Part shown: piece after piece, positions 8,708 to 54,907 of the stretch | Layout of the letters: the number at the start of each line of letters is the position of its first letter | Numbering within the stretch: position 1 is the first letter of the stretch | Assembly (NCBI GenBank): GCA_900450595.1 | Contig: UGGS01000001.1 | Span: 2,170,001-2,234,000 of the forward strand | Length of the DNA: 64,000 nucleotides | Direction of reading: 5' to 3' | From: [Flavobacterium] thermophilum | GTDB lineage: Bacteria > Bacillota > Bacilli > Bacillales > Anoxybacillaceae | The notes under the pieces: model-generated | Seen by the model: only the letters and a program-made list of their open reading frames with translations | Told to the model about the DNA's origin: nothing | The model's database searches: none | Translations under genes and position numbers: made by a program

Positions 8708-8929
8708 AAAAAAATGGGTGTTTTGTGCTGAAATAAAATGATAATTTACAAAGTTACTTTTAAAAAACTTACGTATTGCAGTCGGCACATCCCATAATAG
8801 CCAGTAAATTAAGAAATCCGATTACTCAATTTAACAAAAAGAATTTTCTGATACATAATTGTGTATTGTAATATTTCAATAAATATAGGAAAATACCCAT
8901 ATTTTCGTGTTATGGCTCATCAAGAAGGC

Positions 8930-8944
8930 CGGAGTCTTACTCCG
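8930..8944 (+). terminator. Short intrinsic terminator
   Basis: CGGAGT-CTT-ACTCCG hairpin with CCCTC then TTTTTT on the plus strand. The gene served is unknown. Confidence 0.4.
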
Positions 8945-8971
8945 CCCTCTTTTTTATGATGAACAAAAAAG

Positions 8972-8994
8972 AGCCTACTCAAAACGAGTAGGCT
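8972..8994 (-). terminator. Intrinsic terminator, downstream of the RiPP operon
   Basis: AGCCTACTC-AAAAC-GAGTAGGCT hairpin with a TTTTTT run on the minus strand. It is the first strong terminator after the MFS gene on that strand, beyond the MITE. Confidence 0.6.
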
Positions 8995-9049
8995 GCATTC
9001 GTTTATTAATTAATTTTCCACATTGGAACATAAAGCTCGCGTTAGTACC

Positions 9050-9217
9050 TATATACATGCAACATGAAGAGTTAACCTCTCCGTTATCCTGCACACCCTA
9101 AGCGCTGCAGCACTTCCTCCAAAGATCCTGTAGGCTCAATCTGCAAGCTGAGCCATGGGGGGAGGAAGTTAGTTGCAGGAGAAGGCAAATGTTAATTTTT
9201 CAATGAGCATGTATATA
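9050..9217. mobile_element. MITE related to the IS630 element
   Basis: A 164-bp non-coding element lies between TA dinucleotides (9050-9051 and 9216-9217). Its ends are TATACATGCAACATGAAG and, inverted, TATACATGCTCATTGAAAA, the same two distinct ends as the IS630 element at 13139-14335 but in the opposite orientation. About 70 bp of the left end, up to the CCTCC near 9121, is nearly identical to the IS630 right end including its transposase 3' end; the interior is unrelated. It would be mobilised in trans by the IS630 transposase (inference). Confidence 0.8.
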
Positions 9218-9470
9218 GTTCACTTTCGCCTTTATAGTCATACATAACAGTGTATTCGGCTGTTCCAGGCTTACCGGTTTCAGATAGCTGTAATCAACGG
9301 TGATAAAATGGCTCTTATGCAATATTGGTGATAGAGGGAGCTAATTGGGAAAATTAGTGTGCAATTCGAATTTTTTAGCTTCTCATTCTCAAGTATCTTG
9401 GCTTTTTCACCAAAAGAACTTAAGAGTCAATTTTAAATCGTTGTTGACAGTAAGCAATCATTTTTTTCTC
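9218..9470. other. Intergenic region downstream of the MFS gene
   Basis: No supported coding frame, RNA or strong terminator is seen. It lies between the MITE and the 3' end of the transporter gene. Confidence 0.4.
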
Positions 9471-10691
9471 TTACAAAACTACTTGATCATCGGATAGTAT
9501 GTTTCTGTACTTTCTTATATCGGAATTTATCATCCAAAAGTTTGAAAATATTAAGAGTATCCCTGCTAAAATCAAGACAGTTCTCAACCCTAATATATCA
9601 CTCACTAAACCTCCAACCATTGAACCAAGGGGTATCATCCCCCATGTTATCATCATCATTACACCACTTATTTCCCCCCTTATATGAGAAGGGAGTATAA
9701 TTTGTTGAACCGTCATTCTCGCAATACTACCTATACTCCTCGCAGCATAACAGAAAATTATACCTGTTATAAAAACAAATATTCCTGCTTTTCCATAAGA
9801 AAATCCCATAAAAAGCAGGCCAAAACTCGGTATGATGGGACCAAAAATCATAACTGACAGCACATCAAATTTTTTTATCAATCTTGGGGTAATAAAAGAC
9901 CCTAATAATGCTCCGACTCCTCCTAAGGACAAAATTATGCCAGTTAAAGATTCACTAAGCTTCAAATCCTTAATTAAAAAAATGATAACAATTGCTCCGT
10001 ACATTGACATTGAAAAATTAATAGTACTGGTAGTAAGAACTATGGACTTTAAGATATTGTTTTTTAAGATATATTTTATATTCTTTATAATGTTTATTTT
10101 TCTTGTGCGTTCTACTGTCACCTTATTTGAATTTTTAATACCTAACATTAGAATCGAGCTTATTAATAATGAGCATGAAATAAATGTCATTGTCAACTCT
10201 TCTCCAAAAATCCCTATAACTACTCCACCTAATGCTGGACCTAATAAATTGGCACTAGATCTAGAAAATTGGAGTAAGCTGTTAATTCCTGCTAATTCAT
10301 CCTTACTATAAATATCAGGAATCCATGCTGTTAAAGTAGTTTCTATAATTACTATGACTAGTCCTATTAAAAAAATTATTAAAAAATAATTTAACTTAGT
10401 TAAATTTGAAGATAATGCTAAATATGCAAACATACCAAATAGAAGAGATTTAATAAGTAGAAGAGTTACCATCATATATTTTCTGTTCCACGAATCGGCT
10501 ATTAAACCTGCTATATAACCAAATATCAAAAATCCAATTGATGATAAAGAAATAGCAAAACCAATAGATGAGTTATTTAAATTTAATATATTGATACCTA
10601 AAATAGGAATTAAAATCATTAATATTTCTGTAGATAGAAGTCTTAATATTTCTGCGATTCCTATTTGGAAATTTTTTAATAAATTTTTCAT
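9471..10691 (-). CDS. MFS transporter, probable exporter of the RiPP cluster
   Basis: The 406-residue membrane protein has about 12 hydrophobic segments and the MFS loop-2/3 motif A (GYIAGLIADSWNRKYMM, residues about 58-74). The closest general type is the drug/macrolide-efflux branch of MFS. It is very AT-rich and AT-biased in codons, unlike the flanking chromosome. It is the last gene of the minus-strand cluster, 14 nt after the GST-PqqD gene. Export of the modified peptide, or self-protection, is inferred from the context; the substrate is unknown. Confidence 0.85.
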   Translation of the reverse strand: MKNLLKNFQIGIAEILRLLSTEILMILIPILGINILNLNNSSIGFAISLSSIGFLIFGYIAGLIADSWNRKYMMVTLLLIKSLLFGMFAYLALSSNLTKLNYFLIIFLIGLVIVIIETTLTAWIPDIYSKDELAGINSLLQFSRSSANLLGPALGGVVIGIFGEELTMTFISCSLLISSILMLGIKNSNKVTVERTRKINIIKNIKYILKNNILKSIVLTTSTINFSMSMYGAIVIIFLIKDLKLSESLTGIILSLGGVGALLGSFITPRLIKKFDVLSVMIFGPIIPSFGLLFMGFSYGKAGIFVFITGIIFCYAARSIGSIARMTVQQIILPSHIRGEISGVMMMITWGMIPLGSMVGGLVSDILGLRTVLILAGILLIFSNFWMINSDIRKYRNILSDDQVVL

Positions 10692-10705
10692 TGTTAAAAA
10701 CCTCG

Positions 10706-11767
10706 CTACAAAACATCAATTAAGCTATTTTCTACAACTCTGTTCGGATGTATCTTATTGAAGAAATCTTCTATATCTTTCAATATCGTTTTTTCATCGA
10801 CATCGTACTCATTTAAAACAGTTTTTGCTATCTCTTCTTTAGAATATCCTTTAAATGCCAAATTAAAGAATAATAAACCCACATCATCTTCTAAAATATG
10901 ATATACATCGTTTTCACAATTATGAATCATCCTTATTTCTTCCCAAATTCTATAGTGTCTTGCAATCCAAGTAGGAGAATTTTCTTTTGCCTCTTCCAGT
11001 AATTTATATGGTTGTTTCGCTTCCTCTAAATATAATTTTATGGATTCCCTATTAAGCAATGAATCTAAATAGTTGTTGACTTCGTTATTTGTAACTTTTA
11101 TATTCCATCCTCGAATTTGTTGAGCAATTGGTGCAAACATTGCATCAGCTAAAGAGAAGTCTCCAAATAAAAATTCCCCTGTCCAACCTTTTGCTTTTTT
11201 TCGGGCCAAAGTATTCTCTAATAATTCCAAAGTCTCTTTTAACTGTTCTAAAGCATCATTAGGTATTTCTTTTTGATTATTTTTTCTAAATGAGTTAGCA
11301 TAAGACATTCCACTCATTAATGGTAATAAATCAGCATGAATATGACTACTAAAAACTCGAATATCACTTCTCTTTACGATATCATCACTCAAAAGGCTAG
11401 GATAATCCTTGAAATTTTCTTCCAAATACTCAGATATAGCTAAAACATCACAAATTACAGCACCTGTTTCGGGATCTATTAAAATAGGTACTCTTGGTAA
11501 ATGCTCTACAATACTATTTTCTATTAACTGTGTATCATCAATGTTCAATAGTTGGGTTATTTGACATCCACAACCAGATGCAGGTTCTTTAGGCAAGTCA
11601 TAATCGTCCTTATCTTTTATTGGAATTATTCCATTTTTAGTAAATTTAATAGGCCAATCGAGTCCAGCAATAATTTCCCTATAAGGTATTTTTCTCTCTC
11701 TTAGAATAATAGATGCTCTCATGGACCAAGAGGAAAATTGTTTATCCCCTATAATTAACGTCAACAT
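10706..11767 (-). CDS. Glutathione-S-transferase-like protein fused to a PqqD-like (RRE) domain
   Basis: This is a 353-residue fusion. Residues 1-125 look like the GST thioredoxin-fold domain (SSWSMRASIILRERKIPY, then RVPILID with the cis-Pro), broken by a 40-50 residue insert carrying C66 and C68 (GCGC). Residues 126-260 are the helical GST domain (FGDFSLADAMFAPIAQQ). Residues about 285-340 (HILEDDVGLLFFNLAFKGYSKE and onward) resemble the PqqD/RiPP recognition element found at the start of the neighbouring maturase. The ATG at 11767 follows AGGGAGG, so the longer frame to 11875 is rejected. A role in modifying or carrying the peptide is inference; bacilli use bacillithiol rather than glutathione, so the thiol partner is open. 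Confidence 0.8.
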   Translation of the reverse strand: MLTLIIGDKQFSSWSMRASIILRERKIPYREIIAGLDWPIKFTKNGIIPIKDKDDYDLPKEPASGCGCQITQLLNIDDTQLIENSIVEHLPRVPILIDPETGAVICDVLAISEYLEENFKDYPSLLSDDIVKRSDIRVFSSHIHADLLPLMSGMSYANSFRKNNQKEIPNDALEQLKETLELLENTLARKKAKGWTGEFLFGDFSLADAMFAPIAQQIRGWNIKVTNNEVNNYLDSLLNRESIKLYLEEAKQPYKLLEEAKENSPTWIARHYRIWEEIRMIHNCENDVYHILEDDVGLLFFNLAFKGYSKEEIAKTVLNEYDVDEKTILKDIEDFFNKIHPNRVVENSLIDVL

Positions 11768-11789
11768 AAAATTCAACCTCCCTAAATCA

Positions 11790-13151
11790 TTAAACTGAAC
11801 ATTGCGACTTTGCAGATGAAGAAGGTTCAAAAAAGTAAGGTAAATGACATCCACCTCTACAACTATATAACTCACTACAACCCATACATGTATTACGTGG
11901 TGTAAGTACCTCGGAAACTTTCTTTGTCATTTTATTCCATATACTTTTTATCCCGTCTGTCGTTACATCACCAAAATATACATTGCTATGTGGACAATGT
12001 CTTAACTTACCATTAAAAGATATACTCCCCCAAACCAAACCAGCTTCACAGTGCCCTGATAATTGGCGTTTTCTTAAAGGTAAGGTCGGATCATCGGCAC
12101 TTAGAGGAGAATCCTCTATTGAAGTGCACATTTTTTGACCACATGGCCAAGCAATTACTAAATCATCATATTGTTTTTGTAATTCGTCAATCTGTTTCAT
12201 TAGTGGCAGCATATTTTCAATGGGCACGCCGTATTTATCATCATTTTTTCCAGTTGGTACATATCTCATAACACTAAAATACCTAGCTCCTCTATTATAC
12301 GCATCTTTCATTACATCAATTGCGCTGTTAAAATTCTCTTTTACTAAAGTCAGCTCTACAACAACTTCAATTCCTGTCTTTACAAGAGTTTCAATCGCAC
12401 TGACTGCTTTCTGATAAGCCATCTTATGTCCAGTTAGCAAATTATGTAGTCTCTTATCACCATGTAAAGAAATTAAAACCGTGCCCACATTGTATTTTTT
12501 AAAACGTTCTGCACGTTCAGGTGTTATAAAATGACCATTTGTAAACACTACTTGATAAAGACCCAAACTCCCCCCATATTCAAGAATTTCCTCTATATCA
12601 GGATGCAATAAAGTTTCTCCCCCACTATATCGCACTATGAAACAACCGTTTTCATTACATTCATCTAGAATCTTAAAGACTGTTTCTTTGGGAAGATGCT
12701 TTTGTGGCAACATTTTTATTTTCTTTTGAACATCCTCATCACTAAGATTAGGATCAATTTTCCAGACATTGTAGCAGAATCCGCAATTCCAGTTGCATAG
12801 GGAAGTTACCTCTATTTCAATGCGAAGAGGGAATTCTAGTAATTTATTATGCTTTTTTTCAATGTCCCACTCCCATACTTTTTCCTTATGTTCACAAATA
12901 TTTGATATAAATACAAATATATCATCTATTAACTCCTCTTCTTGAACATCATACTCTTGTAAAATGTAATTTTTGATATAGTTAATATCATGATTTTGAC
13001 GAATTAAAGATAATATTAACACACCTATGTCTCCATCTACTCTGTGAATGATACCAGTATTACTTTCGAACAATAGTCCTAGATCTTCCCTAAACTTCAT
13101 TTTTTTTATCTTTTCTATATATGGTATTAAACTTTCTATATACATGCTCAT
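11790..13151 (-). CDS. Radical SAM/SPASM peptide maturase with N-terminal PqqD-like domain, 5' end replaced by IS630
   Basis: The 453-residue frame as it now stands starts at an ATG inside the IS630 end. It has a PqqD-like RRE (residues about 20-88), the radical SAM cluster motif CNWNCGFC (C119, C123, C126), a GGETLLHPDIEE segment, and a C-terminal SPASM-type Cys set (CEAG, RHCPHS, CMGCSELYSCRGGC, QCSV) for auxiliary Fe-S clusters. The original start is at 14350 (ATG AGC CAA AAC TTA), after AAAGGAGG. Excising the 1197-bp IS and one TA joins it in frame. Such enzymes install thioether, C-C or epimer modifications on RiPP precursors; the chemistry here is unknown. Confidence 0.85.
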   Translation of the reverse strand: MSMYIESLIPYIEKIKKMKFREDLGLLFESNTGIIHRVDGDIGVLILSLIRQNHDINYIKNYILQEYDVQEEELIDDIFVFISNICEHKEKVWEWDIEKKHNKLLEFPLRIEIEVTSLCNWNCGFCYNVWKIDPNLSDEDVQKKIKMLPQKHLPKETVFKILDECNENGCFIVRYSGGETLLHPDIEEILEYGGSLGLYQVVFTNGHFITPERAERFKKYNVGTVLISLHGDKRLHNLLTGHKMAYQKAVSAIETLVKTGIEVVVELTLVKENFNSAIDVMKDAYNRGARYFSVMRYVPTGKNDDKYGVPIENMLPLMKQIDELQKQYDDLVIAWPCGQKMCTSIEDSPLSADDPTLPLRKRQLSGHCEAGLVWGSISFNGKLRHCPHSNVYFGDVTTDGIKSIWNKMTKKVSEVLTPRNTCMGCSELYSCRGGCHLPYFFEPSSSAKSQCSV

Positions 13152-14337
13152 TGAAAAGTTAACCTTCGCATAAGCGGTGCCCACTCTGGTTATACTGCTC
13201 CTAATGAAAAACATGGAAAAGGAGCGGAATTCTGCATGAAACGTCTCAAAATCACCAACGATCACGGATGGACACCTCGGACACTTCGCAAACAGGAACG
13301 GAAAATCAAAAACACCCTTCTTCGCCAACGTGTGATGGCCGTCCGCCTGGTCATGGAAGGCTATTTGGGCAAAGAGGTGGCCTCCATGGTCAACGTGTGC
13401 CGACAAACCGTTTCCCATTATGTGTCGCTGTTCAACGAAGGCGGTCTGGAGCTCTTGCTTCATCGGGATTTCGCCCCTGGGCGGGAGCCGTTTCTCACGG
13501 AAGAACAGCAAGAAAAGATCAAACAGCTTGTATTGACCACCACTCCCGCGGAACTGGGCTGGGACGTCGCTTCGGCGTGGAACACCAAACTCCTGCAATC
13601 CTATGTCGCAAAGCAATTCGGTGTTTCCATTTCCCGCGAAGCGTTGCGAAAACTCCTGCACCGCAAAGGGCTGTCGTGGACACGACCGACGTACACACTG
13701 GCGAAAGGAAATCCGGATGAGCAAAAGCAATTTGAAAAACAAATGGATCTGATAAAAAAAAACTTGATCACCAAGGAGACAGAAGATGCTGTTCTTCTGT
13801 ACATCGATGAAACCCATATCCGCTCTTACCATGTCTTGCGGTCCACATGGTCGGAAGTCGGCCGCCAAAAACAAGTGCCGACGTTTGGCCATCATGCCCA
13901 CGTATCGCTGTTTGGCGCGGTCAACGTCCATGATGGTGAAACGGTGCTTCATCAAACAACTGCCGCCAATGCTGCGACGTTCTTGGATTTCTTGAGAATG
14001 CTCAAAGAGCGCTATCCAGACCGTCTCATGGTCTTGGTGTTGGATAACGCCCGCATTCACCATGCCAAGATGGTCAAGGAGTTTTTGCGGGAAGAAGGGC
14101 AGTGTTTTCACTTTATTTACCTTCCTCCCTATTCGCCACAGCTGAACCCGATCGAACGCTTATGGAAATGGCTGAAAGATACGGTGATTGCCAATGTATT
14201 TCACAAGGATCGCAACGATATCATTCAAGCCATTACTCGGTTTGTCAACTACATCCACGAACGTCCGGAGGAAGTGCTGCAGCGCTTAGGGTGTGCAGGA
14301 TGACTGAGAAGTTAACTCTTCATGTTGCATGTATATA
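13137..14337 (+). mobile_element. IS630-family insertion sequence
   Basis: The element of 1197 bp (13139-14335) lies between duplicated TA dinucleotides (13137-13138, 14336-14337), as IS630/Tc1 elements do. Its ends TATACATGCTCATTG and TATACATGCAACATG share the outer TATACATGC and an inner GTTAAC. It is inserted in codon 5 of the radical SAM gene and encodes an intact transposase. Confidence 0.9.
13236..14303 (+). CDS. IS630-family transposase
   Basis: The 355-residue transposase has an N-terminal winged HTH (residues about 25-135, GKEVASMVNVCRQTVSHYV) and the DDE core: YIDETHIRS, LVLDNARIHH, and PYSPQLNPIERLWKWLK with the acidic residue of the NPIE motif. The frame is complete and opposite in direction to the interrupted maturase. 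Codon use and GC are closer to the host chromosome than to the RiPP genes around it, which suggests arrival after the cluster. Confidence 0.95.
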   Translation: MKRLKITNDHGWTPRTLRKQERKIKNTLLRQRVMAVRLVMEGYLGKEVASMVNVCRQTVSHYVSLFNEGGLELLLHRDFAPGREPFLTEEQQEKIKQLVLTTTPAELGWDVASAWNTKLLQSYVAKQFGVSISREALRKLLHRKGLSWTRPTYTLAKGNPDEQKQFEKQMDLIKKNLITKETEDAVLLYIDETHIRSYHVLRSTWSEVGRQKQVPTFGHHAHVSLFGAVNVHDGETVLHQTTAANAATFLDFLRMLKERYPDRLMVLVLDNARIHHAKMVKEFLREEGQCFHFIYLPPYSPQLNPIERLWKWLKDTVIANVFHKDRNDIIQAITRFVNYIHERPEEVLQRLGCAG

Positions 14338-14350
14338 AGTTTTGGCTCAT
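14338..14350 (-). pseudogene. Severed 5' end of the radical SAM gene
   Basis: ATGAGCCAAAACT, preceded by AAAGGAGGATAAT, is the original ribosome site and first codons of the maturase gene. The IS630 separates it from the rest. Joined to GAAAGTTTAATACC at 13136 through one TA, it reads MSQNLESLIPYIEKIKK without interruption. Confidence 0.85.
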
Positions 14351-14378
14351 ATTATCCTCCTTTACTATTGCAAATTAA

Positions 14379-14406
14379 GAGGAGGTCAACTATAGTTGCC
14401 CTCCTC
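14379..14406 (-). terminator. Hairpin between precursor and maturase genes
   Basis: GAGGAGGGCAAC-TATA-GTTGACCTCCTC on the minus strand gives a 12-bp stem with one G-T pair and no strong T run after it. In RiPP operons such a hairpin often limits read-through so that the precursor is made in excess. It may act as a leaky terminator or an mRNA stabiliser (inference). Confidence 0.55.
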
Positions 14407-14414
14407 CTATTAAA

Positions 14415-14489
14415 TTAGTTGCACTGTAAAGATGGTCCTTTTGCTGATTTAACAGTTGGACGTTTGTATTCTTTTTTTGCTTTTGCCAT
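14415..14489 (-). CDS. Candidate RiPP precursor peptide, 24 residues
   Basis: This short gene has a very strong ribosome site (AAAGGGGGGAG, 4 nt before the ATG). The peptide is basic, with seven Lys and one Arg. It begins MAKAKKEYKRPT, so residues 8-11 form a YxxP motif of the kind bound by RRE domains in lasso-peptide and related leaders, and it ends GPSLQCN with a single Cys at position 23. It is the first gene of the cluster, followed by a hairpin and then the maturase. Assignment as a precursor rests on size, motif and position; no homologue was searched for. Confidence 0.72.
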   Translation of the reverse strand: MAKAKKEYKRPTVKSAKGPSLQCN

Positions 14490-14515
14490 TATTCTCCCCC
14501 CTTTAGATTGTATGT

Positions 14516-14546
14516 ATATAAATAAGCGCTTAGCGCTTATTTATAT
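14516..14546. promoter_or_regulatory. Perfect 14-bp inverted repeat in the precursor leader
   Basis: ATATAAATAAGCGC-TTA-GCGCTTATTTATAT has 14-bp arms and a 3-nt centre. It lies 27 nt upstream of the precursor ATG and downstream of the promoter at 14596-14624. It could be a repressor operator or an RNA hairpin. On the plus strand a T-rich tract follows, so it may also terminate rightward transcripts. Confidence 0.6.
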
Positions 14547-14595
14547 CCCTTTTTTGTTTTTTATTTTTAAAATGATTATAATATTTGTTATTTAT

Positions 14596-14624
14596 ACTAT
14601 AATATGTAAATTAACGCAATTCAA
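14596..14624 (-). promoter_or_regulatory. Predicted promoter of the RiPP cluster
   Basis: Minus strand: -35 TTGAAT (14619-14624), 17-nt spacer, -10 TATAGT (14596-14601). It lies upstream of the inverted repeat and of the precursor gene in a very AT-rich region, which lowers certainty. Confidence 0.55.
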
Positions 14625-14812
14625 GTATATTTTTGCTTTTTTGCATTTATTTTTACTTTTTTTATATTAAACATAAAAAATGATTTTTATTGGTCAGGCG
14701 TGTTGATTATCCAATAAAATCCAAAGGGTATAGAAAAAAGAGCACCTTTCCTGTAGAATGTGAGTAGCGACACAAACAAACCCAGGAGGTGCTCTCTATG
14801 AACAAGCATACC

Positions 14813-15442
14813 CCGAGTTCGACAGTCACTAGGCAAACAAAATGCCTCTCGCCCCTTGATGCAAAAGGGACGAGAGACATTTGGGCACACTTTGGGCGTG
14901 TATCTAGGCGCGAGGATGGATGCCTAGGATCTTCAGAGGAGGCTCCAGCCCTAGAGCCACAAAGAGTTGAGCCTGTTTGGCCGTTAGTTCGGTTCGTTGA
15001 GAAAGGTCTCCGTTTTTGGAAGAAAAATGTCCAAGCATGAGACGCTCACACCCGTCTCTTACTTTCGGATATGATTCATGAGTCAGGGGAAAGGAATCGC
15101 AACTTTTGGCCAAACGCTCCAAGACAGCACAATCCACCTCGTCTTCGCACTCGAACGAATCCATCACCTTCGCTTTCGCATATTTGGCCTTCGGATCCCA
15201 ATTCGTTGTGAGCAAGCTGGAGATAGGCCACGGTCGTTCCGTCTTTGTTTTTGCGTGTGACTCGTCGTATGTACGTGCCTATATGATAAACGATATTGGG
15301 CTTTTTAAAAGAATAAATTGTCAAGTCGTGTGCCTATGAAATTTGGCGTTTTTTCCTAGGATCCGCATCACGAAACCCTTGATATAACAGCATTTTGGTC
15401 ATTTCCATTTGCCTAAAATGACCTCAAAACTGTCGAACTCGG
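14813..15442 (-). mobile_element. Internally deleted IS1634-like element
   Basis: It has perfect 14-bp inverted ends CCGAGTTCGACAGT (14813-14826 and 15429-15442) and a 7-bp target duplication GCATACC (14806-14812, 15443-15449). At 630 bp it is far shorter than a full family member. It carries only the N-terminal quarter of a transposase. It is inserted in the IS4 transposase gene. Confidence 0.82.
14904..15324 (-). pseudogene. IS1634-family transposase remnant, truncated and frameshifted
   Basis: One frame reads TYIRRVTRKNKDGTTVAYLQLAHNE, typical of the IS1634 N terminus but with the expected Met replaced by Thr. The frame then shifts near 15205 to WDPKAKYAKAKVMDSFECEDEVD and ends at 14904 inside the element. 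Most of the catalytic domain is gone. Confidence 0.75.
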
Positions 15443-16629
15443 GCATACCACACTCCCGAATTTGATGCAAAAACTTGTTTCGGATGAAGAGATTCAACTG
15501 ATTGCCGAAGCGGTTGGGTATCGTGATTCGTCTCGAACCTTTACGTTGCGCGAGTTGATTCACTTCTTCCTGCTGGCCGCCATGCATCAATGGAAAAGCT
15601 TTCGCCACGGAGCCGATGTGGGGCCTCTGTATGGATTGCCGCGATTCCATTATTCAACTGTATCCAAGAAAGCGAAAGAAGTTCCCTATGACATCATGAA
15701 ACGCTTGTTGGCGTTGATCATTTCCAAGTGCAACCGCCAAACCCGCCGTTCGCTTCGGTTTCCCAAACCGCTTCGGGTGGTGGATTCGACGACCGTCACA
15801 GTCGGGAAAAACCGCCTCCCATGGGCGCCGTATCACGGCGAACGCGCCGGAGTGAAGCTGCACGTCGCGTATTCGCCGGAATCCTCGCTGCCGGCAGACG
15901 TGGTGGAAACCATCGGACTGCGTCATGATGGCCCGGTGGGAGAACAGTTGACGAACGCTCAACAAGTGCTCGTGGAAGACCGGGCGTATTTCAAAATCGA
16001 ACGCCTCGATCGATTTGTGGAGCAGCATCAGCTCTTTGTCATTCGGATGAAGGACAACATCGAACTTCATCAGAAAAAAAGCTTGAAACGCCTTTCCAGC
16101 ACATCCTCATCGGTTCAAGCCGACTTCACGTGCCAGTTGGGGACGAAACAATGCCGCTCCACCAAGCGTCACCGGGTGGTGATCTTTCGAGATGCGAATG
16201 GCCGCGACATTCGGGTCGTGACGAACCTCTTCCATGCGTCTGCGGAAACCATTGCCGACATGTACCAACAACGTTGGACTGTTGAGGTCTTTTTCCGTTG
16301 GGTGAAGCAATATCTGAATGTCCCGACCTTGTTTGGCACGACGGAAAATGCGGTATACAACCAACTGTTTGCGGCGTTCATCGCGTATGTGTTGCTGCGA
16401 TGGCTGTATGATCAAACCAAAAAACAGACGAACGTCTCTCTTTCCTTCATTTCGTTCGTTCGCCGTTTTTTCTCTGGGCAGCTTCCTCTCGATTGGAAAT
16501 CCGGGATGGCCGCTGCTTTGTTTGAGTATGCCCAAATTTATGGAAGGCGTATGTATAATTTTGGATAATCAACACTCGTGCAATGATGCGATAGTATGAT
16601 TATTGCAATACATATACATGTATATGTAT

Positions 16630-17234
16630 AATACAGCGTGTATATGTGTACCCGTGGTGCTAGTTGAGCGTCAACGCTCCACTAGCCCAAGAACAACGAG
16701 AGAATGGGCCAATAAAATGCCATCAAGCGCTGTTTCAAATCCAGAAACCGAATTGGCACGAATTTCCGTAATCCGAAATGAATCCACTAAAACCGAGAAC
16801 GCAGTTTCGACGATTTTGCGTTTTTGCTTCATCCATTGTTTCCATTTTTTTGATTGCGCAACTCGTTGATTTTTCCGAGCAGGCGTCCAAAAAGCGATTT
16901 TGTATTCATCGTATAGTTTCTTTTGCAAGGCTTGGCTCACATATCCTTTGTCGCCAAGTGTATACGGATGAGGAAGTTGGGCCATCACGGTTTCCGCAGC
17001 TGTCCGGTCGTGGCAGGATGCTTCGGTCAGGACATATCCCATCGGAAGCGCTTGGTCGGTAATCTGAAGATGAAGCTTAAATCCATAGTAAGCCATCTTT
17101 TTGGATGCACAATACCCAATATCTGCGATTCCTTGAAATCGTTTGACGCGATACATTCGTGCGTGGTGGCAGAGTTCAATGGGTAAGCTATCCACCACCG
17201 CATAAGCGTGATGTTGTCCACGTTTGGCGATGAT
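16630..17234 (-). mobile_element. IS982-family fragment, truncated by IS256
   Basis: The fragment carries the 3' two thirds of an IS982-type transposase and its downstream end. Its 5' side stops exactly where the IS256 left end begins (17235). Confidence 0.65.
16671..17234 (-). pseudogene. IS982-family transposase, 5' truncated
   Basis: The remaining reading frame shows VVDSLPIELCHHARMYRVKRF, then IGYCASKKMAYYGFKLHL, GDKGYVS and KRKIVETAFSVL, which carry the three catalytic acidic residues of IS982 enzymes. The N-terminal domain and start codon are missing because the IS256 element abuts at 17235. Not functional by itself. Confidence 0.8.
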
Positions 17235-18661
17235 GTATAAAATTTTGTGTAAAGCATTTTGCTAGAACAAAAGAAAAAAGGTAGGGTATTCTCTGATTTG
17301 GACCACAACACATTCCAGAGAAAGGAGTACCCTACCTATGTCTAAAAGAAGTATACCGAATGTCGACTGGGCAAATCAACTGGAAAATGCCATTCGTCAG
17401 TTTGTAAAAGAAAAATTAGAACTGATTATGCGGGAAGAAATCAAAAATTTCCTCGAAATCGAACAGGCTGGAACGCCGAATATGAGAAACGGCTACTATC
17501 AGCGAAATCTAGATACACAATATGGCCGGATTGAGGGTCTTTTGGTTCCAAGAGACCGAAACGGGGAATTTCAAACACAGTTGTTTGCCCCTTACCAACG
17601 GCACACGGGCTGGCTGGAGGAAGCAATCATTAGGATGTACCAAAGTGGCATGAGCACGCGTGAAATTGGCAAGTTTATCGAACGAATTCTAGGAAGCACC
17701 TATTCTCCTGCGACGATCAGCCGGATTACCGATGTCGTGAAGGAAGACATCGAGAAATGGCACGCTCGTCCACTACACCAGCGTTATTCGGTCTTATATT
17801 TGGACGGCTTGTACGTGAAACTTCGCCGGGATACGGTAGAGAAAGAAGTTATTTATGTGGTATTGGGGGTGAACGAAGAAGGGTATCGTGAAATTCTTGA
17901 TTTCTTCGTAGGAGGACAAGAAAGCGCCTATGTATGGCAGGAGATTCTCCAACAGCTCTACAAAAGAGGCGTCAAGGAAGTGCTTCTTGGCGTCTTCGAT
18001 GGCCTTCCGGGGTTGGAGGAAGCCTTTAAGGCGGTGTATCCGAAAGCCGATGTGCAGCGCTGTGTCGTGCACAAAGTCCGCAACACCCTCAGCCGTGTTC
18101 GGAAAAAAGATCAATTCGAAATGGCGGAGGACCTGAAACTCATTTATCGTTCTCCGAATAAAGAAATCGCATTGGAGATGTTTCAACAGTTTCAATCCAA
18201 ATGGTCTCACAAATACCCAAGGGAAGTCCAATCTTGGGCAAATGAGTTGGATGTCCTTCTCACCTTTATGGACTATCCAAGCAGTATTCGAAGTGTGATT
18301 TATACGACCAATGCCATCGAACGAACGATCAAGGAGATTCGGAAACGCCTAAAACCGATGAACAGTTTGAGCAGTTTAGAAGCCGCTGAAAAAGTCGTAT
18401 ATTTGACGATACAGGACTTTAACGAGAAATGGGCAGGGCGAAAGTTGCGAGGATTTGCCGAAGCGCAAGAAGCCCTTCAACGAATGTTCGAAGAACGTTA
18501 TTGTTAACCAAATATTGTAAATAAACAAAATAAGGGGATTTTCCCTTTCCACACAAGAGACTGAATATTCAGTCTCTTGTGTGAAGGAAACCGGTTCCCT
18601 ATCCATTCCAAATCCATTTCAGAGATACCCTATCTATCTTACATTACACAAAATTCTTGAC
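17235..18661 (+). mobile_element. IS256-family insertion sequence
   Basis: The ends GTATAAAATTTTGTGTAAAG (17235-17254) and, inverted, GTCAAGAATTTTGTGTAATG (18642-18661) agree at 16 of 20 positions. The interior encodes an intact Mutator-type transposase. The flanks (GGCGATGAT on the left, GGTACCCGG on the right) share no 8-9 bp duplication, and both flanks are broken genes, which points to an IS-mediated deletion. Confidence 0.82.
17338..18507 (+). CDS. IS256-family (Mutator-type) transposase
   Basis: The 389-residue transposase matches the family length. The DDE residues lie in YLDGLYVKLRR, GVFDGLPGLEEAF and TTNAIERTIKEIRKR, and the family motif VQRCVVHKVRN is present. The start follows AGAAAGGAG in the IS leader. 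It appears complete. Confidence 0.95.
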   Translation: MSKRSIPNVDWANQLENAIRQFVKEKLELIMREEIKNFLEIEQAGTPNMRNGYYQRNLDTQYGRIEGLLVPRDRNGEFQTQLFAPYQRHTGWLEEAIIRMYQSGMSTREIGKFIERILGSTYSPATISRITDVVKEDIEKWHARPLHQRYSVLYLDGLYVKLRRDTVEKEVIYVVLGVNEEGYREILDFFVGGQESAYVWQEILQQLYKRGVKEVLLGVFDGLPGLEEAFKAVYPKADVQRCVVHKVRNTLSRVRKKDQFEMAEDLKLIYRSPNKEIALEMFQQFQSKWSHKYPREVQSWANELDVLLTFMDYPSSIRSVIYTTNAIERTIKEIRKRLKPMNSLSSLEAAEKVVYLTIQDFNEKWAGRKLRGFAEAQEALQRMFEERYC

Positions 18662-18662
18662 G

Positions 18663-18794
18663 GTACCCGGCGGCCTGGGGCATAAAGATATTGTGACCAC
18701 CCTACAAACATATTCGCACATTTTGGACGAGATGGAACAAAAAGAATCTCGGCAGGTCAATCTCGCGATGGAGGAGCTGTATCATGCCAAATAG
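18663..18794 (+). pseudogene. C-terminal end of a tyrosine integrase
   Basis: The last 43 codons of a phage/ICE-type integrase read GLGHKDIVTTLQTYSHILDEME and end ELYHAK. They include the LGH motif and the nucleophilic Tyr in TYSHI. The upstream part was removed at the right end of IS256 (18661). The fragment lies 125 nt from the tRNA-Arg gene, as expected for an element that integrates at tRNA 3' ends. Confidence 0.82.
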
Positions 18795-18851
18795 CCGTGT
18801 AAAATTTTTTCGGATTCTATCGGTTTTTTCGGGATTCCCCAAAAACGAAAA

Positions 18852-18871
18852 ACGACCGCGAACGCGGTCGT
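18852..18871 (-). terminator. Terminator now serving tRNA-Arg
   Basis: ACGACCGCGTTCGCGGTCGT hairpin followed by TTTTCGTTTTT on the minus strand, about 48 nt downstream of the tRNA 3' end. It lies on the island side of the att core. Confidence 0.8.
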
Positions 18872-18918
18872 ATCAAGGGATTTGGGAATCTCAATCCGAA
18901 CTTGTCGGATAGTTGGAA

Positions 18919-18990
18919 CGCCCTCGGCAGGATTCGAACCCACGCTAAGAGAACCGGAATCTCTCGTGCTATCCACTACACTACGAGGGC
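18919..18990 (-). tRNA. tRNA-Arg (anticodon CCG)
   Basis: A 72-nt cloverleaf on the minus strand. The acceptor GCCCTCG pairs with CGAGGGC, the anticodon stem AGAGA/TCTCT encloses the loop TTCCGGT (anticodon CCG), and the T arm has GGTTCGAATCC. CCA is not encoded. The 3' half carries the core repeat shared with 5489-5500, so this gene is the inferred integration site. Confidence 0.95.
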
Positions 18991-19263
18991 ATATCGATTG
19001 ATTGTTTTGCTGTTTCGTTCCGTTGCATGTTCTATTATAGCAGGATCGAAAAAAAATGCAAGGGGAAAATGCAATAAAAAAAGAGGAAAAATTGGGCGCC
19101 CATTCCACACCTTATCGCCTGCACCGACGGCCGCGGTTCTTCGCCCCGGTTGCAGAGGCGGCGGAAAACAGTGGTTTAAAAAATGAAAAAGCGGTTATGA
19201 TGAAAAGAGGGATGTTCGCCGTCGTTCGCGAATATATATAACTGGCGGGAAGAGGGCATTTTG
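18991..19263. other. Intergenic region between tRNA-Arg and clpP
   Basis: No supported gene. It contains the upstream region of the tRNA (minus strand) and, at its right edge, the clpP control region. Confidence 0.5.
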
Positions 19264-19280
19264 TTTGACCTTCATTGACC
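19264..19280 (+). promoter_or_regulatory. CtsR operator of clpP
   Basis: Read on the minus strand it is GGTCAATGAAGGTCAAA, the tandem heptad bound by CtsR, the class III heat-shock repressor of Gram-positive bacteria. It overlaps the -35 of the clpP promoter. Confidence 0.85.
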
Positions 19281-19293
19281 ATTCGTGTATGAT
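19265..19293 (+). promoter_or_regulatory. clpP sigma-A promoter
   Basis: -35 TTGACC (19265-19270), 17-nt spacer, -10 TATGAT (19288-19293). The CtsR site covers the -35 and spacer. Confidence 0.8.
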
Positions 19294-19336
19294 GAAGGCG
19301 TACATATTTATGAAAGGGGAAAAGGAGGCGTTTTGG

Positions 19337-19927
19337 ATGTATTTGATTCCGACGGTCATTGAACAGACGAACCGCGGGGAACGGGCGTATGACATTTATT
19401 CGCGGTTGTTGAAAGACCGGATCATTTTCCTCGGCAGCCCGATCGACGACCAAGTGGCCAACTCGATCGTGTCGCAGCTGCTGTTTTTGGCGGCGGAAGA
19501 CCCGGACAAAGACATTTCCTTGTACATCAACAGCCCGGGCGGTTCGATCACGGCCGGCTTGGCGATTTACGACACGATGCAGTTCATTAAGCCAGACGTA
19601 TCGACGATTTGCATCGGCATGGCGGCATCGATGGGGGCGTTTCTGCTGGCGGCTGGCGCCAAAGGAAAACGGTTTGCCCTTCCGAACAGCGAGGTAATGA
19701 TCCACCAACCGCTCGGCGGCGCCCAAGGGCAGGCGACGGAAATCGAAATCGCCGCGAAGCGCATTTTGTTCTTGCGCGACAAACTGAACCGCATTTTGGC
19801 GGAAAACACCGGCCAGCCGATCGAAGTGATCGAACGCGATACGGACCGCGACAACTTCATGACGGCGCAAAAAGCGATGGAATATGGCATTATCGACCGG
19901 GTGCTGACGCGTTCGGACGAAAAATAA
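19337..19927 (+). CDS. clpP: ATP-dependent Clp protease proteolytic subunit
   Basis: ClpP is the 14-mer serine protease chamber fed by ClpX/ClpC. The product has 196 residues, the standard length. The catalytic Ser is S98 in IGMAASMG and the His is H123 in MIHQPLGG; the Asp lies further on in the RDTDRDNF region. The ATG at 19337 ([19 protein letters not shown]) follows AAAAGGAGG; the in-frame upstream Met residues belong to the leader. It is one of the few plus-strand genes and is controlled by the CtsR site upstream. Confidence 0.98.
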
Positions 19928-19938
19928 GCCGAAACAAT

Positions 19939-19967
19939 AAAGGCTGCTTCGGAAACGGAGCAGCCTT
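19939..19967. terminator. clpP/crh bidirectional terminator
   Basis: AAGGCTGCTTCG-GAAA-CGGAGCAGCCTT, a strong hairpin between the convergent clpP and crh genes, with A and T tracts on both sides. Confidence 0.85.
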
Positions 19968-20015
19968 GTCTCATATTTGCCCGCGAACGCACCGACGGTC
20001 GTTCCGGCGCACCAC

Positions 20016-20273
20016 TCACTTTTCTTTTTGCACATAGGCGGCGAGCTTTTCGATCGCTTCTTGCTCATCCGGACCGTCGGCAATGAGCGTGACCACCGCT
20101 CCGTGGCCGACAGCGAGGCTCATCAAGCCCATAATGCTTTTCGCGTTGACCCGTTTTCCGTCTTTTTCCAAAAACACATCAGCGGAAAAACGGTTCGCTT
20201 CTTGGACGAACAACGCCGCCGGGCGCGCCTGCAGCCCGGTTTTCAATTTCACTTCCACTTGTTTTTCCACCAT
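20016..20273 (-). CDS. crh: Catabolite repression HPr-like protein Crh
   Basis: Crh is an HPr paralogue. When phosphorylated on Ser46 by HprK it acts as a CcpA corepressor. The 85-residue product has Gln at position 15 (LKTGLQARPA) where HPr has the PTS-phosphorylated His, and Ser46 in NAKSIMGLM. It therefore cannot serve in PTS transfer. It is the last gene of the rapZ-yvcK-whiA-crh run, 14 nt after whiA; its kinase HprK is encoded at 38629-39564. Confidence 0.95.
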   Translation of the reverse strand: MVEKQVEVKLKTGLQARPAALFVQEANRFSADVFLEKDGKRVNAKSIMGLMSLAVGHGAVVTLIADGPDEQEAIEKLAAYVQKEK

Positions 20274-50083: not shown

Positions 50084-51550
50084 TTAAATTCCCATACTAC
50101 TTACGACACATGAATGAAGATGAAGTCGTTTGATTTCTTCATCATGCAGTCGAATAAATTGATCCCATCTCTCTAAACATTTTTGTCTATCTATTTCTTT
50201 TCGATTGTCTTTCACATTCATGATTAAAAATGCGCTGTATAAATCTCGTTGCACTCTGCGTCCGTCTACTTCGTGCCATCGTTGGGAAAGTGTTTTCTTG
50301 TTGTACTCATCGTTTTGGTGGTCGTATTGACTTGCCTTGACGCGAAATGTGTCGATGTATTGAAGGGAATAGCCTTCATATTGCAGTTTTTGATTCAGTA
50401 TGTTTAAAAACAAACTTGGTGCACGATTCGCAATACTTTTTCCAAATCGTTTTTTCTTTTTGTATTTTCCGTTGGCATCGACTTTTGTTTCTTTTGCCTT
50501 TGCTTGAAGTGCTCTGAAATTCATTTTTTCTACTTGGATATGATGACCTAATGCGATGATCCAATTGGCAAGCCGTTGATGATCTTGTTTCCGTTTATCT
50601 GCCATTTTTCTTTGTAATTCTGCTAACTGATTTCTCGTTTTGAGATAATTTTTACTCCAAACCCATTTTTCCTTGTTGTCTTTTTTTATTGTCCCATCTT
50701 CATTGTATTTGTGCGGATTATTCGCCCGTCTTTGACGATCCAATTTTCGTTGAAGAACTCGCTTTTGCTTTTCTATGTTTTCGACACTCGGCGCAAGAAT
50801 AAGCAACTTGACATTATTCATCGAGCAAATAGCGACGGTTTGTGTTCCTATGTCGATACCAACATCGCCTCGCCCTATTGGATGTTTTATTTCTCCTGTT
50901 TGGCGGTTTATTTTCTTTGGTGGCACACCTTCAAGAGTGAGTTGAAGAAAATACTTGATTTTTCCTCTAATTCGTCTACGGACGATGCGACAATATTTTA
51001 TACGGTCTTGTAGAGCCAGATGTGTATATATGTCGTTTGGGTGAATTATAACAGGAATAGATAAACCATTCCAAAGCAAATGTTTGTTTTTGAAACGGAT
51101 GCCTGCGCTATTTGTTTTTCCTTCTAATGAATCCATATCGTTGTATTTCTTAAAAGACACTTTTTTTGCATTACCAAAGATGAGTTCTTCCATTGCCATC
51201 CATGCTCTCGTAGCGATTTTTTGTGCGGTGTGTGAGTCGATGTGTTTCTTGAAATGGTGTTGCATTGGCTTAACAAAATCGTGCATAGCGTATTCATTGA
51301 TTCCGTACTGACGATATAACTCATTTAGCAAGTTGTTTCTTTCTTTTGATTTTGGTTGTTGGGCTAGATGACGATACTGCTTATCATGTTGTAGTTTTTT
51401 ATGCCGTTTCAACAATTCGCCCAAACAAGCGTTGTATATTTTTCTGCCAATTTCAAAACGTTTCTCTAATATGTACGCCTGCCATAGTTCTGTTTTGAGT
51501 TTCAACGTCAGCACATAACTTTTGGTTTTTGTTTTCGCCAACGACACCAC
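50084..51550 (-). CDS. tnpB: TnpB RNA-guided nuclease homologue lacking the zinc finger
   Basis: TnpB is an OmegaRNA-guided DNA nuclease that preserves IS605 elements and is the ancestor of Cas12. The 488-residue protein keeps the RuvC residues D233 (GIDIGTQTV), E341 (VEKMNFRAL) and D436 (VQRDLYSAFL). The four-cysteine zinc ribbon normally between the second and third RuvC motifs is absent: residues 407-430 read SQYDHQNDEYNKKTLSQRWH and onward without Cys. It lies 5 nt after tnpA. The OmegaRNA would be expected from the 3' end of this gene through the right end near 49925. Confidence 0.9.
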   Translation of the reverse strand: MVSLAKTKTKSYVLTLKLKTELWQAYILEKRFEIGRKIYNACLGELLKRHKKLQHDKQYRHLAQQPKSKERNNLLNELYRQYGINEYAMHDFVKPMQHHFKKHIDSHTAQKIATRAWMAMEELIFGNAKKVSFKKYNDMDSLEGKTNSAGIRFKNKHLLWNGLSIPVIIHPNDIYTHLALQDRIKYCRIVRRRIRGKIKYFLQLTLEGVPPKKINRQTGEIKHPIGRGDVGIDIGTQTVAICSMNNVKLLILAPSVENIEKQKRVLQRKLDRQRRANNPHKYNEDGTIKKDNKEKWVWSKNYLKTRNQLAELQRKMADKRKQDHQRLANWIIALGHHIQVEKMNFRALQAKAKETKVDANGKYKKKKRFGKSIANRAPSLFLNILNQKLQYEGYSLQYIDTFRVKASQYDHQNDEYNKKTLSQRWHEVDGRRVQRDLYSAFLIMNVKDNRKEIDRQKCLERWDQFIRLHDEEIKRLHLHSCVVSSMGI

Positions 51551-51555
51551 TTCCT

Positions 51556-51963
51556 TTATACGTTCTTTTGATTTTCGATGTATTGTTTAACCGCTTCTTC
51601 TGAAATATAGCCGACAGTACAACAAAAATAACTTCGTGTCCATAGCGATGGTAGTCTGCTTTTTAACGAAGGATATTTCTCCCTTAATATTCGACTGCTT
51701 TTCCCTTTAAACGCTTGTATAATTTTGTGCAAATGTTGACGAGGGTCAAAAGAAATGAACAAATGAACATGATCAGGCATAATTTCCATTGCTTTGATTT
51801 GTACATCATGTTCTTTGGCAACTTCTTCAAAAATTTTTTTTAAATCTCGTTCAATATCTCCAACTAACACTTTTCTACGGTATTTTGGACAAAACACAAT
51901 ATGATATTGATTGAGATAAACAATCCCTTTTTTATGGGTGTATTTTTCGTTTTCCAAAAACAA
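51556..51963 (-). CDS. tnpA: IS200/IS605 Y1 transposase TnpA
   Basis: This 135-residue HUH single-strand transposase has the HUH pair in PDHVHLFI (H65, H67) and the catalytic Tyr at Y128 in AVKQYIENQ. It cuts and joins single-stranded IS ends. It is upstream of tnpB in the same orientation. The frame is complete, so the element may be mobile. Confidence 0.95.
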   Translation of the reverse strand: MFLENEKYTHKKGIVYLNQYHIVFCPKYRRKVLVGDIERDLKKIFEEVAKEHDVQIKAMEIMPDHVHLFISFDPRQHLHKIIQAFKGKSSRILREKYPSLKSRLPSLWTRSYFCCTVGYISEEAVKQYIENQKNV

Positions 51964-52518: not shown

Positions 52519-52989
52519 TTATTTCCATCGTTCATTTGGGACAATATCCCGCATCCAAAACCACATATCATCGACCTTGCTGAAATATGCCCCTTCGAGC
52601 AATAAGTCAATAATCGGGCAGTTGTAGAGATTCTCCTCATGGGGGCAACATGCCTTCAGCTCAAGGAGCATCGCCTCCATTTTCATTAAGTCCTGAATCT
52701 TCTCCTTGATCTCCTTGATTTTCTGCTCGACAAATTGGTACATATCTTTGCATCGGTCGCGATCCCGATCGACAACGCCAAGCAGTTTATCAATCTCTGC
52801 CAAGGTGAACCCGAGCGCTTGCAACCGCTTAATAAACTGGATGCGCCTGACGGTTTCCTCCGTATACAGACGGTATCCGCCTTCCGTCCGCTCGGTTTCG
52901 GGAATGAGCCCCTTCCGTTCGTAGTACCGAATGGTTTCTTTGTTGACATGGCATCTTTCTGCCAGCTCCCCGATGCGGTAATGTTTCAC
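52519..52989 (-). CDS. merR: Mercury-responsive MerR regulator
   Basis: MerR activates mer promoters by twisting the over-long spacer when Hg(II) binds. The 156-residue product has the MerR HTH (RIGELAERCHVNKETIRYYERKGLIPETERTEGGYR) and the three Hg ligands C80, C115 (in KACCP) and C124 (YNCPII). It is longer than the usual 130 residues, with about 20 extra at the C terminus. It lies downstream of merA in the same orientation and has its own promoter and operator at 53018-53038. Confidence 0.93.
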   Translation of the reverse strand: MKHYRIGELAERCHVNKETIRYYERKGLIPETERTEGGYRLYTEETVRRIQFIKRLQALGFTLAEIDKLLGVVDRDRDRCKDMYQFVEQKIKEIKEKIQDLMKMEAMLLELKACCPHEENLYNCPIIDLLLEGAYFSKVDDMWFWMRDIVPNERWK

Positions 52990-53017
52990 ATAACCACCTC
53001 ACCCAAAAGGATCACCG

Positions 53018-53038
53018 TGCACGATCGTACAGGGTCAA
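53018..53038 (-). promoter_or_regulatory. MerR operator and -35 of merR
   Basis: Minus strand: -35 TTGACC (53033-53038), then TGTACGATCGTGCA (53018-53031), close to the dyad at the main mer promoter. A good -10 is not visible. Confidence 0.65.
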
Positions 53039-53087
53039 GGAAATAGGAACGTTGCGCCGACATTTCGTTATGAATCGGGAAGCGCCC

Positions 53088-53187
53088 GGTCAAACGGATC
53101 GCTTCTTATTCCGCTTCATTGCAACCGCAATGAGTTCCAGCCCCTTCATAACGGTCCGCGAAGCGGCGGCCCAATTCGAAGGCCTCA
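53088..53187 (-). CDS. Possible small protein overlapping the merA stop
   Basis: An ATG overlaps the merA TGA (ATGA) and opens a 32-codon frame, [16 protein letters not shown] and onward, rich in Lys/Arg at its end. The coupling arrangement is suggestive, but there is no family match and no independent ribosome site, so this may be chance. Confidence 0.25.
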
Positions 53188-54825: not shown

Positions 54826-54907
54826 GGTCACAAACACTCCTTAATGAAAAGTGGTCTTTCCTAGTTTTGAGCAAAAAGGCGGCTCCTACCACAAAAAAAC
54901 ACGAACG

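Follow-up and report, generated by a model that had tools for sequence, protein, structure and literature searches.

Pyrroloquinoline quinone (PQQ; PqqA, PqqD, and PqqE) and mycofactocin exemplify ribosomally synthesized and post-translationally modified peptides (RiPPs) that combine a very short precursor and an invariant core with a RiPP recognition element (RRE) and a radical S-adenosylmethionine (SAM) enzyme. The core of PqqA consists of Glu and Tyr, and the mycofactocin precursor ends in Val-Tyr. RREs of lasso peptide systems bind the leader motif Y-x-x-P-x-[LV], and lasso leaders contain Gly at the tenth residue counted from the Tyr. Fusions of an RRE to a glutathione S-transferase (GST) were mentioned in 2020 as absent from known classes; the relevant passages of the RRE-Finder paper place them in putative RiPP clusters, four of nine of which contain a radical SAM enzyme, and give neither a pathway nor a link to the monooxygenase LadA (PMC7470986). 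Here we analyze such a fusion in a 64,000-nucleotide stretch of [Flavobacterium] thermophilum DNA (contig UGGS01000001.1, positions 2,170,001 to 2,234,000; hereafter the window), where genes for a 24-residue peptide, a radical SAM/SPASM maturase, a GST-fold protein with a C-terminal RRE (GST-RRE), and a major facilitator superfamily (MFS) transporter lie together. The interest of the locus lies mostly in what its relatives add, namely LadA adjoining the peptide pathway.

LadA of Geobacillus thermodenitrificans has long been described as a long-chain alkane monooxygenase. According to the available passages of a recent report (Mireles 2025; PMC12449030), alkane hydroxylation was not reproduced for LadA, a stabilized variant, or four homologues, and no activity of LadA was found on hexadecane, 2-hexadecanone, or dibenzothiophene sulfone. 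These passages also summarize the induction of ladA on crude oil and on hexadecane, as well as better growth of an AlkB-less Pseudomonas; the terms operon, neighbor, peptide, gene cluster, and genomic context do not occur in them. The ladA genes of Acinetobacter DR1 were judged negligible in an excerpt of another study (PMC5658608). Enzymes of the same Pfam family, PF00296, are known to tailor RiPPs: excerpts of four papers describe LanJC proteins as luciferase-like monooxygenases that modify lanthipeptides and report such genes in daptide clusters as well (PMC7268733, PMC7794033, PMC10036551, PMC12338566). Among the open-licence papers listed by literature searches, judged by title, the start of the abstract, and term counts, none joins LadA to a RiPP.

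Conservation of the peptide and its gene order

Five loci were read with their genomic context: the window; plasmid pLW1071 of G. thermodenitrificans NG80-2 (L086; 57,693 bp, typed as conjugative), which carries the cluster uninterrupted; Priestia megaterium CH447_14T (L005); the IMG/VR contig L085 (hereafter the Bt-like contig), on which the maturase shares 99.8% and the GST-RRE 99.7% identity with proteins of Bacillus thuringiensis; and genome G774 (L098), from another family of the same class. All five share the order peptide, radical SAM maturase, GST-RRE, MFS, with the short precursor encoded beside the enzymes. The PLSDB gene table of pLW1071, which declares itself incomplete, lists the maturase, GST-PqqD, and MFS genes and does not list the peptide.

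The window peptide has counterparts on pLW1071 (MSKAKKEYKRPTVKSAKGPSLQCN, read at L086:1877-1951) and in the Priestia, Bt-like, and G774 loci (MAKKGYKRPTVKSGKAPALQCN, MAKKEYKRPTVKSGKAPSLQCN, and MTKTKKVYVKPTVKSATGPSMQCN, respectively). These precursors of 22–24 residues all fit KK-x-Y-x-[KR]-PTVKS-x3-P-[SA]-[LM]-QCN, in which a Y-x-x-P-x-V stretch precedes a C-terminal P-[SA]-[LM]-QCN. Each contains a single, invariant Cys just before the C-terminal Asn; the core Ser is replaced by Ala in Priestia. The precursor and maturase genes are separated by 64–74 bp in four loci and by an insertion sequence (IS) in the window. Over 22 codons, most precursor pairs, though not all, show more synonymous than non-synonymous change (window–Bt-like 5/2, window–Priestia 7/4, window–G774 8/6, Priestia–Bt-like 3/2).

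Profiles and predicted models support an RRE in both enzymes. By profile, both RREs match TbiB1 of a lasso system (PDB 5v1u/5v1v), the one at the N terminus of the maturase with an E value of 1.8e-6 and the one at the C terminus of the GST-fold protein with 1.2e-4, and both are predicted with a common order of elements, three strands followed by three helices; a passage of the RRE-Finder paper gives the opposite order (PMC7470986). Against a Pfam cut-off of 23.4 bits, the PqqD domain of the maturase scores 15.6 in the window and 24.5 in G774. Structure searches with the GST model returned no RRE chain for its C-terminal part among the matches listed.

A preliminary description of this DNA had proposed a RiPP pathway encoded by four minus-strand genes in tandem. 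The four genes are present as named, but an IS630-family element parts the peptide gene from the maturase gene, so the tandem is not uninterrupted. The RiPP proposal itself stands, given a conserved upstream peptide in all five loci, with the noted YxxP and C-terminal Cys, and two RREs by profile and model; that the PqqD-like domains might prove not to be RREs is countered by the TbiB1 matches and the shared predicted fold order. "Undescribed" still applies in that no class name was found, but RRE–GST fusions have been in print since 2020, as passages of PMC7470986 document. Judging from sequence, we consider the locus very likely to be a RiPP cluster of one class or another. Its best overall explanation is probably a cluster of an unnamed class, with both RREs and with radical SAM followed by GST chemistry.

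The inverted repeat 5′ of the peptide gene is a possible operator, and the stem-loop between the precursor and maturase genes a possible attenuator or processing site (Table 1). The repeat is not among the pairs listed for the regions upstream in the Priestia, Bt-like, and G774 loci (5 of 18 pairs listed for L085). On the Bt-like contig, the region 5′ of the peptide gene (L085 7824-8454) contains three to four copies of directly repeated sequence, at most 184 nt long and spaced by 184–203 bp.

The cluster is rare in the genomes sampled. GST-RRE was found in 2 of 397 sampled genomes of the order, and the maturase in 2 of 398 genomes of the class, 1 of 10 of the genus Priestia, 1 of 151 of G774's family, and 1 of 398 of the phylum; these counts come from overlapping samples and include the known center or the window. 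Among 61 near relatives, the GST-RRE protein matched the window alone, apart from a weak match in G001 (E 4.8e-4, 27%). A scan of genome contigs with alignment A1 (one pattern; 80 of 246 relatives kept) yielded the Priestia locus as the sole true member; the other 79 match at 24–30% over the GST part. Phage records contained no cluster member. Seven plasmid records matched the GST-RRE protein, one of them truly, and one record matched the maturase. In viral contigs, the peptide pattern led back to L085, which was also the one true member among three loci found with the maturase alignment. Loci in Nocardia, Streptomyces, Rummeliibacillus, and Staphylococcus are known from protein lists only. 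Fourteen of 37 GST-RRE proteins share the exact length of their longest contig with one of 77 maturase relatives, compared with none of 91 plain GSTs. In G774, a gene for a regulator with helix-turn-helix and tetratricopeptide repeat domains (L098 6817-8112, minus strand) is divergent to the operon; the protein resembles peptide-sensing regulators.

LadA in and beside the cluster

Three of the five loci encode LadA. Its gene closes the operon in G774, with a 4-bp overlap with the MFS gene, and in the Bt-like contig, 31 bp 3′ of the MFS gene; on pLW1071 it is a divergent neighbor on the upstream side of the peptide gene, at a distance of 450 bp. The pLW1071 protein is the very LadA of strain NG80-2 (WP_011888513.1; PDB 3b9n/3b9o). 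All three proteins belong to PF00296 and score 530.2, 520.1, and 465.1 bits with TIGR03860 (NtaA/DmoA family; cut-off 279.7). They are mutually 66, 67, and 79% identical, the Bt-like protein being the 79% relative, whereas the 17 best other loci, drawn as best matches from 299 plus 250 sampled and overlapping genomes, reach 53–56% identity to pLW1071 LadA by tblastn (56–59% in other tables). In midpoint-rooted trees the three group together (100/100 with 10 outsiders and 99/99 with 17). The three known members of LadA's clade all lie in or beside this putative new type of RiPP cluster (radical SAM-RRE plus GST-RRE), of which LadA is an optional part.

We regard it as close to an even call, if slightly short of one, that LadA is natively a RiPP tailoring enzyme. 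Its substrate would be the modified core of the 24-residue, QCN-ending peptide, perhaps at a C–S bond; the LadA relatives dimethyl-sulfide monooxygenase and DszA offer a model for such action. With LanJC as a known precedent, tailoring of a RiPP by LadA becomes a less unusual kind of proposal. LanJC, however, acts with dehydratases in other RiPP classes, and its likeness to LadA is at the level of PF00296.

The alternative is that LadA is a monooxygenase of catabolism that mobile elements have picked up, its adjacency a coincidence and its role in the pathway nil. Several observations weigh in this direction and against a native peptide function. Two of the five loci are without LadA, and no LadA match was found in the window genome or the Priestia genome. 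On pLW1071 the divergent gene is separated from the peptide gene by what we take to be a transposase remnant. Partial segments of other matches reach 63% identity; the outsider L109 attaches to the LadA group on a long branch, so that the clade does not shut out other sequences, and its genome, G632, was in the class sample without a maturase match there (membership inferred); and 1 of 739 plasmid records falls in the 60–80% identity band. The induction and growth results summarized above likewise suit a catabolic enzyme. Coincidence accounts less readily for two loci in which LadA closes the operon, for the gap in identity between the three LadAs and the 17 best others, and for their single tree group. 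In addition, a LadA-like gene was found in 49 of 299 genomes of the order, and none of these 49 showed GST-RRE (sample membership inferred). We give the coincidental reading substantial weight while considering it somewhat less than probable. Patterns built from LadA's own letters found nothing in viral contigs, despite the 79% relative on L085, and reach near copies only.

If the native peptide role holds, the neighborhood would offer a concrete alternative substrate for LadA after the missing alkane activity reported in passages of PMC12449030, and annotations as "alkane monooxygenase LadA" that derive from similarity to 3b9n would have to be re-examined.

State of the cluster in the window

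In the window, an IS630-family element has entered the maturase gene (Table 1). Its transposase matches NCBIfam NF033545 with 266.3 bits (cut-off 100), and its GC content is 0.497. Neither this element nor its deletion derivative is present on pLW1071, which shows the empty site. There the maturase starts with AAAGGAGGATAATATGAGCCAAAACTTAGAAAG, which identifies codon 5 as the point of insertion; the first codons, MSQNL, were cut off. The IS end contributes ATGAGCATGTATATA, which restores the frame (ATG-AGC-ATG-TAT-ATA), and the window maturase again has 453 residues (MSMYIESL...), differing from that of pLW1071 at residues 3, 4, and 5 only.

The element parts the maturase operon from the region upstream of the precursor, which may leave the pathway of the window strain silent or weak. 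A stronger version of this view holds that the cluster is dead there, its maturase cut off from its promoter and its other genes being lost. The position of the IS within the fifth codon, with the transposase on the opposite strand, fits such an outcome, as does the number of promoter-like matches in 13100-14700, which does not exceed that in shuffled sequence (4 versus a mean of 3.0). Decay is harder to reconcile with a maturase reading frame without stop or frameshift, with GST-RRE and MFS proteins unchanged relative to pLW1071, and with the IS-supplied, in-frame ATG, which is accompanied by a minus-strand promoter-like match (10/12) within the IS at 14248-14220. Death of the window copy is a reading to be taken seriously, although we lean away from it.

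Comparison with known RiPP classes

A lasso peptide was considered and dropped: the B2 protease family PF13471 has no match in the window genome (E 0.01), nor did Pfam scans of cluster proteins from the window and G774 return one. No asparagine-synthetase-like cyclase was found among the Pfam-scanned operon proteins of these two loci; the genomes were not searched for a cyclase. The missing protease match sets the locus apart from lasso systems, with which it shares the RRE profile and the Y-x-x-P-x-[LV] leader.

The streptide maturase SuiB and the sporulation killing factor maturase SkfB are the top Foldseek matches of the maturase model, and the sequence matches SkfB with E 1.3e-20; the SPASM domain scores just under the Pfam cut-off (20.9 versus 21.5 bits). 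Assignment to a curated radical SAM RiPP family was nevertheless dropped, as none of the 25 families listed (of 66) reaches its NCBIfam cut-off. Bits and cut-offs are 64/300 for SkfB, 47.9/850 for AlbA, and 42.7/340 for PapB, which argues against a maturase of these curated sactipeptide or ranthipeptide families, and 83/650 for WgkB. The precursor, with its single Cys and QCN end, also departs from the SuiB and SkfB systems. The same holds for PQQ and mycofactocin: PqqE scores 58.2/381 and the MftC-type maturase of mycofactocin 70.3/265, the peptide lacks the Glu/Tyr core and ends in Cys-Asn, and GST-RRE and MFS proteins are present instead.

A known class in disguise nonetheless deserves consideration. 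The radical SAM enzyme could form a thioether of the usual sactionine or ranthipeptide type, or another known radical SAM crosslink, with the GST protein serving only as a leader-binding chaperone. One invariant Cys makes a thioether of this kind possible; the maturase is SuiB- and SkfB-like, as described above; several of the GST-fold proteins carry the NCBI name "PqqD family peptide modification chaperone"; and the glutathione-site residues are not strictly kept. We nevertheless think this explanation unlikely in view of the unmet cut-offs, the presence of only one Cys in the peptide, and the retention of the GST domain, which has the expected fold and an inserted Cys loop.

Two simpler descriptions of the GST domain were abandoned. 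Loss of the glutathione-site Ser is not a rule, as 5 of 26 family rows keep it, and the CxC loop that appeared invariant in alignment A1 lacks its second Cys in 3 of 26 rows.

The 77 listed relatives of the maturase reach Nocardia, Streptomyces, Staphylococcus pseudintermedius, and some Proteobacteria. In S. pseudintermedius, maturase relative P0129 represents 572 sequences and the partial GST-RRE P0024 represents 61. The window genome contains a second PqqD match (L001) at G000:C2:841539-841727. What follows it looks to us like a radical-SAM-like protein whose C-terminus is rich in Cys, presumably another PqqD/radical SAM locus. An S. pseudintermedius paper was rejected as an account of the cluster, its available part concerning subtilosin instead (PMC12094015).

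Proposed pathway

We envision that both RREs grip the Y-x-x-P-x-V leader and that the radical SAM enzyme hands one peptide on to the GST-fold enzyme; the lasso-type leader stretch, together with an RRE on each enzyme, suggests that the same handle is presumably used by both in turn. The radical SAM enzyme would act first, altering a bond in the short core (last residues PSLQCN). The GST-fold enzyme would then carry out a thiol-linked step on this core, for which the invariant Cys is the likeliest site. Such a Cys before the C-terminal Asn, combined with a GST fold, suggests sulfur chemistry; whether the Cys is the modified residue is evenly balanced, and a thioether in particular is doubtful. 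Where present, the FMNH2 (reduced flavin mononucleotide)-dependent monooxygenase of the LadA clade may act on the intermediate. The MFS protein, encoded in all five loci, would plausibly export the product, and a host protease would cut the leader, because no protease was seen among the operon genes.

Several findings count against this scheme. Selection on the peptide is not visible in every pair: synonymous and non-synonymous differences are 4/8 for the Bt-like contig and G774 and 3/9 for Priestia and G774. The Gly of lasso leaders at the tenth residue from Tyr is not kept in the precursors. The glutathione-site residue is Ser in 12 of 12 plain GSTs and in 5 of 26 family rows, with Val in 14 of 26, and the second loop Cys is absent in P0199, P0202, and P0203. 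Bacillales are not known to contain glutathione. Finally, many maturase relatives, in Nocardia and elsewhere, have no GST-RRE partner in the protein lists.

The LanJC precedent also raises the idea that the LadA-clade enzyme belongs to the pathway but reduces a dehydrated residue, for example one derived from the core Ser, as excerpts of PMC7268733, PMC7794033, PMC10036551, and PMC12338566 propose for LanJC (Ser to D-Ala via reduction of dehydroalanine); common membership in PF00296 speaks for it, but it is improbable given that no lanthipeptide dehydratase was seen among the operon genes, that Priestia, itself without LadA, has Ala in place of the core Ser, and that all three LadAs exceed the cut-off of the FMN-dependent NtaA/DmoA family.

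Our preferred reading, an unnamed RiPP class, would add a small pathway of a peptide, two RRE-bearing enzymes, and an exporter that lies below all listed curated maturase cut-offs. It would give a GST fold a putative part in peptide maturation, in a cluster that occurs in several Bacilli as well as on a plasmid of conjugative type.

Extent of the island and neighboring genes

Homology to pLW1071 by blastn covers 8922-9051 (99.2%), 9216-13138 (99.7%), and 14336-14640 (95.1%) and is interrupted at the two IS630-type elements. Homologous sequence flanks both elements, so the island extends over approximately 8922-14640, and the limits of 9471 to 14489 first assigned to it were too narrow. Its strong AT-richness, noted at the same time, is borne out: GC contents are 0.347 for the peptide gene, 0.338 for the radical SAM/SPASM gene, 0.311 for the GST-PqqD gene, and 0.295 for the MFS gene, compared with 0.543 and 0.564 in two flanking stretches.

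Table 1. Features of the island, in window coordinates
Feature	Position	Strand	Basis or remark
AT-rich mobile island	8922..14640	.	blastn pieces versus pLW1071; includes two IS insertions
Copy of the IS630 element shortened by deletion, with both ends present	~9052..9215	-	3′ of MFS gene; absent in pLW1071
MFS transporter	9471..10691	-	identical to pLW1071 protein
GST-RRE protein, 353 aa	10706..11767	-	identical to pLW1071 protein
C-terminal RRE of GST-fold protein	~10745..10954	-	Pfam, profile, predicted model
Radical SAM/SPASM maturase, 453 aa from IS-supplied ATG	11790..13151	-	Pfam, predicted model, pLW1071 comparison
N-terminal RRE (PqqD-like) of maturase, ~residues 15-90	12882..13109	-	profile and predicted model
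IS630-family element, transposase coding sequence 13236-14303	~13139..14335	+	in codon 5 of maturase gene; ends approximate
Imperfect palindrome/stem-loop	14376..14409	-	between precursor and maturase genes; also in pLW1071
Precursor peptide MAKAKKEYKRPTVKSAKGPSLQCN, 24 aa	14415..14489	-	homologues in pLW1071, Priestia, Bt-like contig, G774
Perfect inverted repeat, 15-bp arms	14516..14546	.	5′ of peptide gene; same arms in pLW1071

Directly past the island, 14640-20100 is an insertion hot spot. It contains three genes that we take to be transposase-like (15462-16568, plus; 16671-17198, minus; 17338-18507, plus), followed by a presumed clpP-like gene (19265-19927, plus). Farther along the window, 50084-51963 holds what appears to us to be an AT-rich IS200/IS605-like pair, a small transposase at 51556-51963 and a TnpB-like gene at 50084-51550, both on the minus strand. 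Adjoining this pair, 52519-54837 presumably encodes a MerR-like regulator and a mercuric-reductase-like protein.

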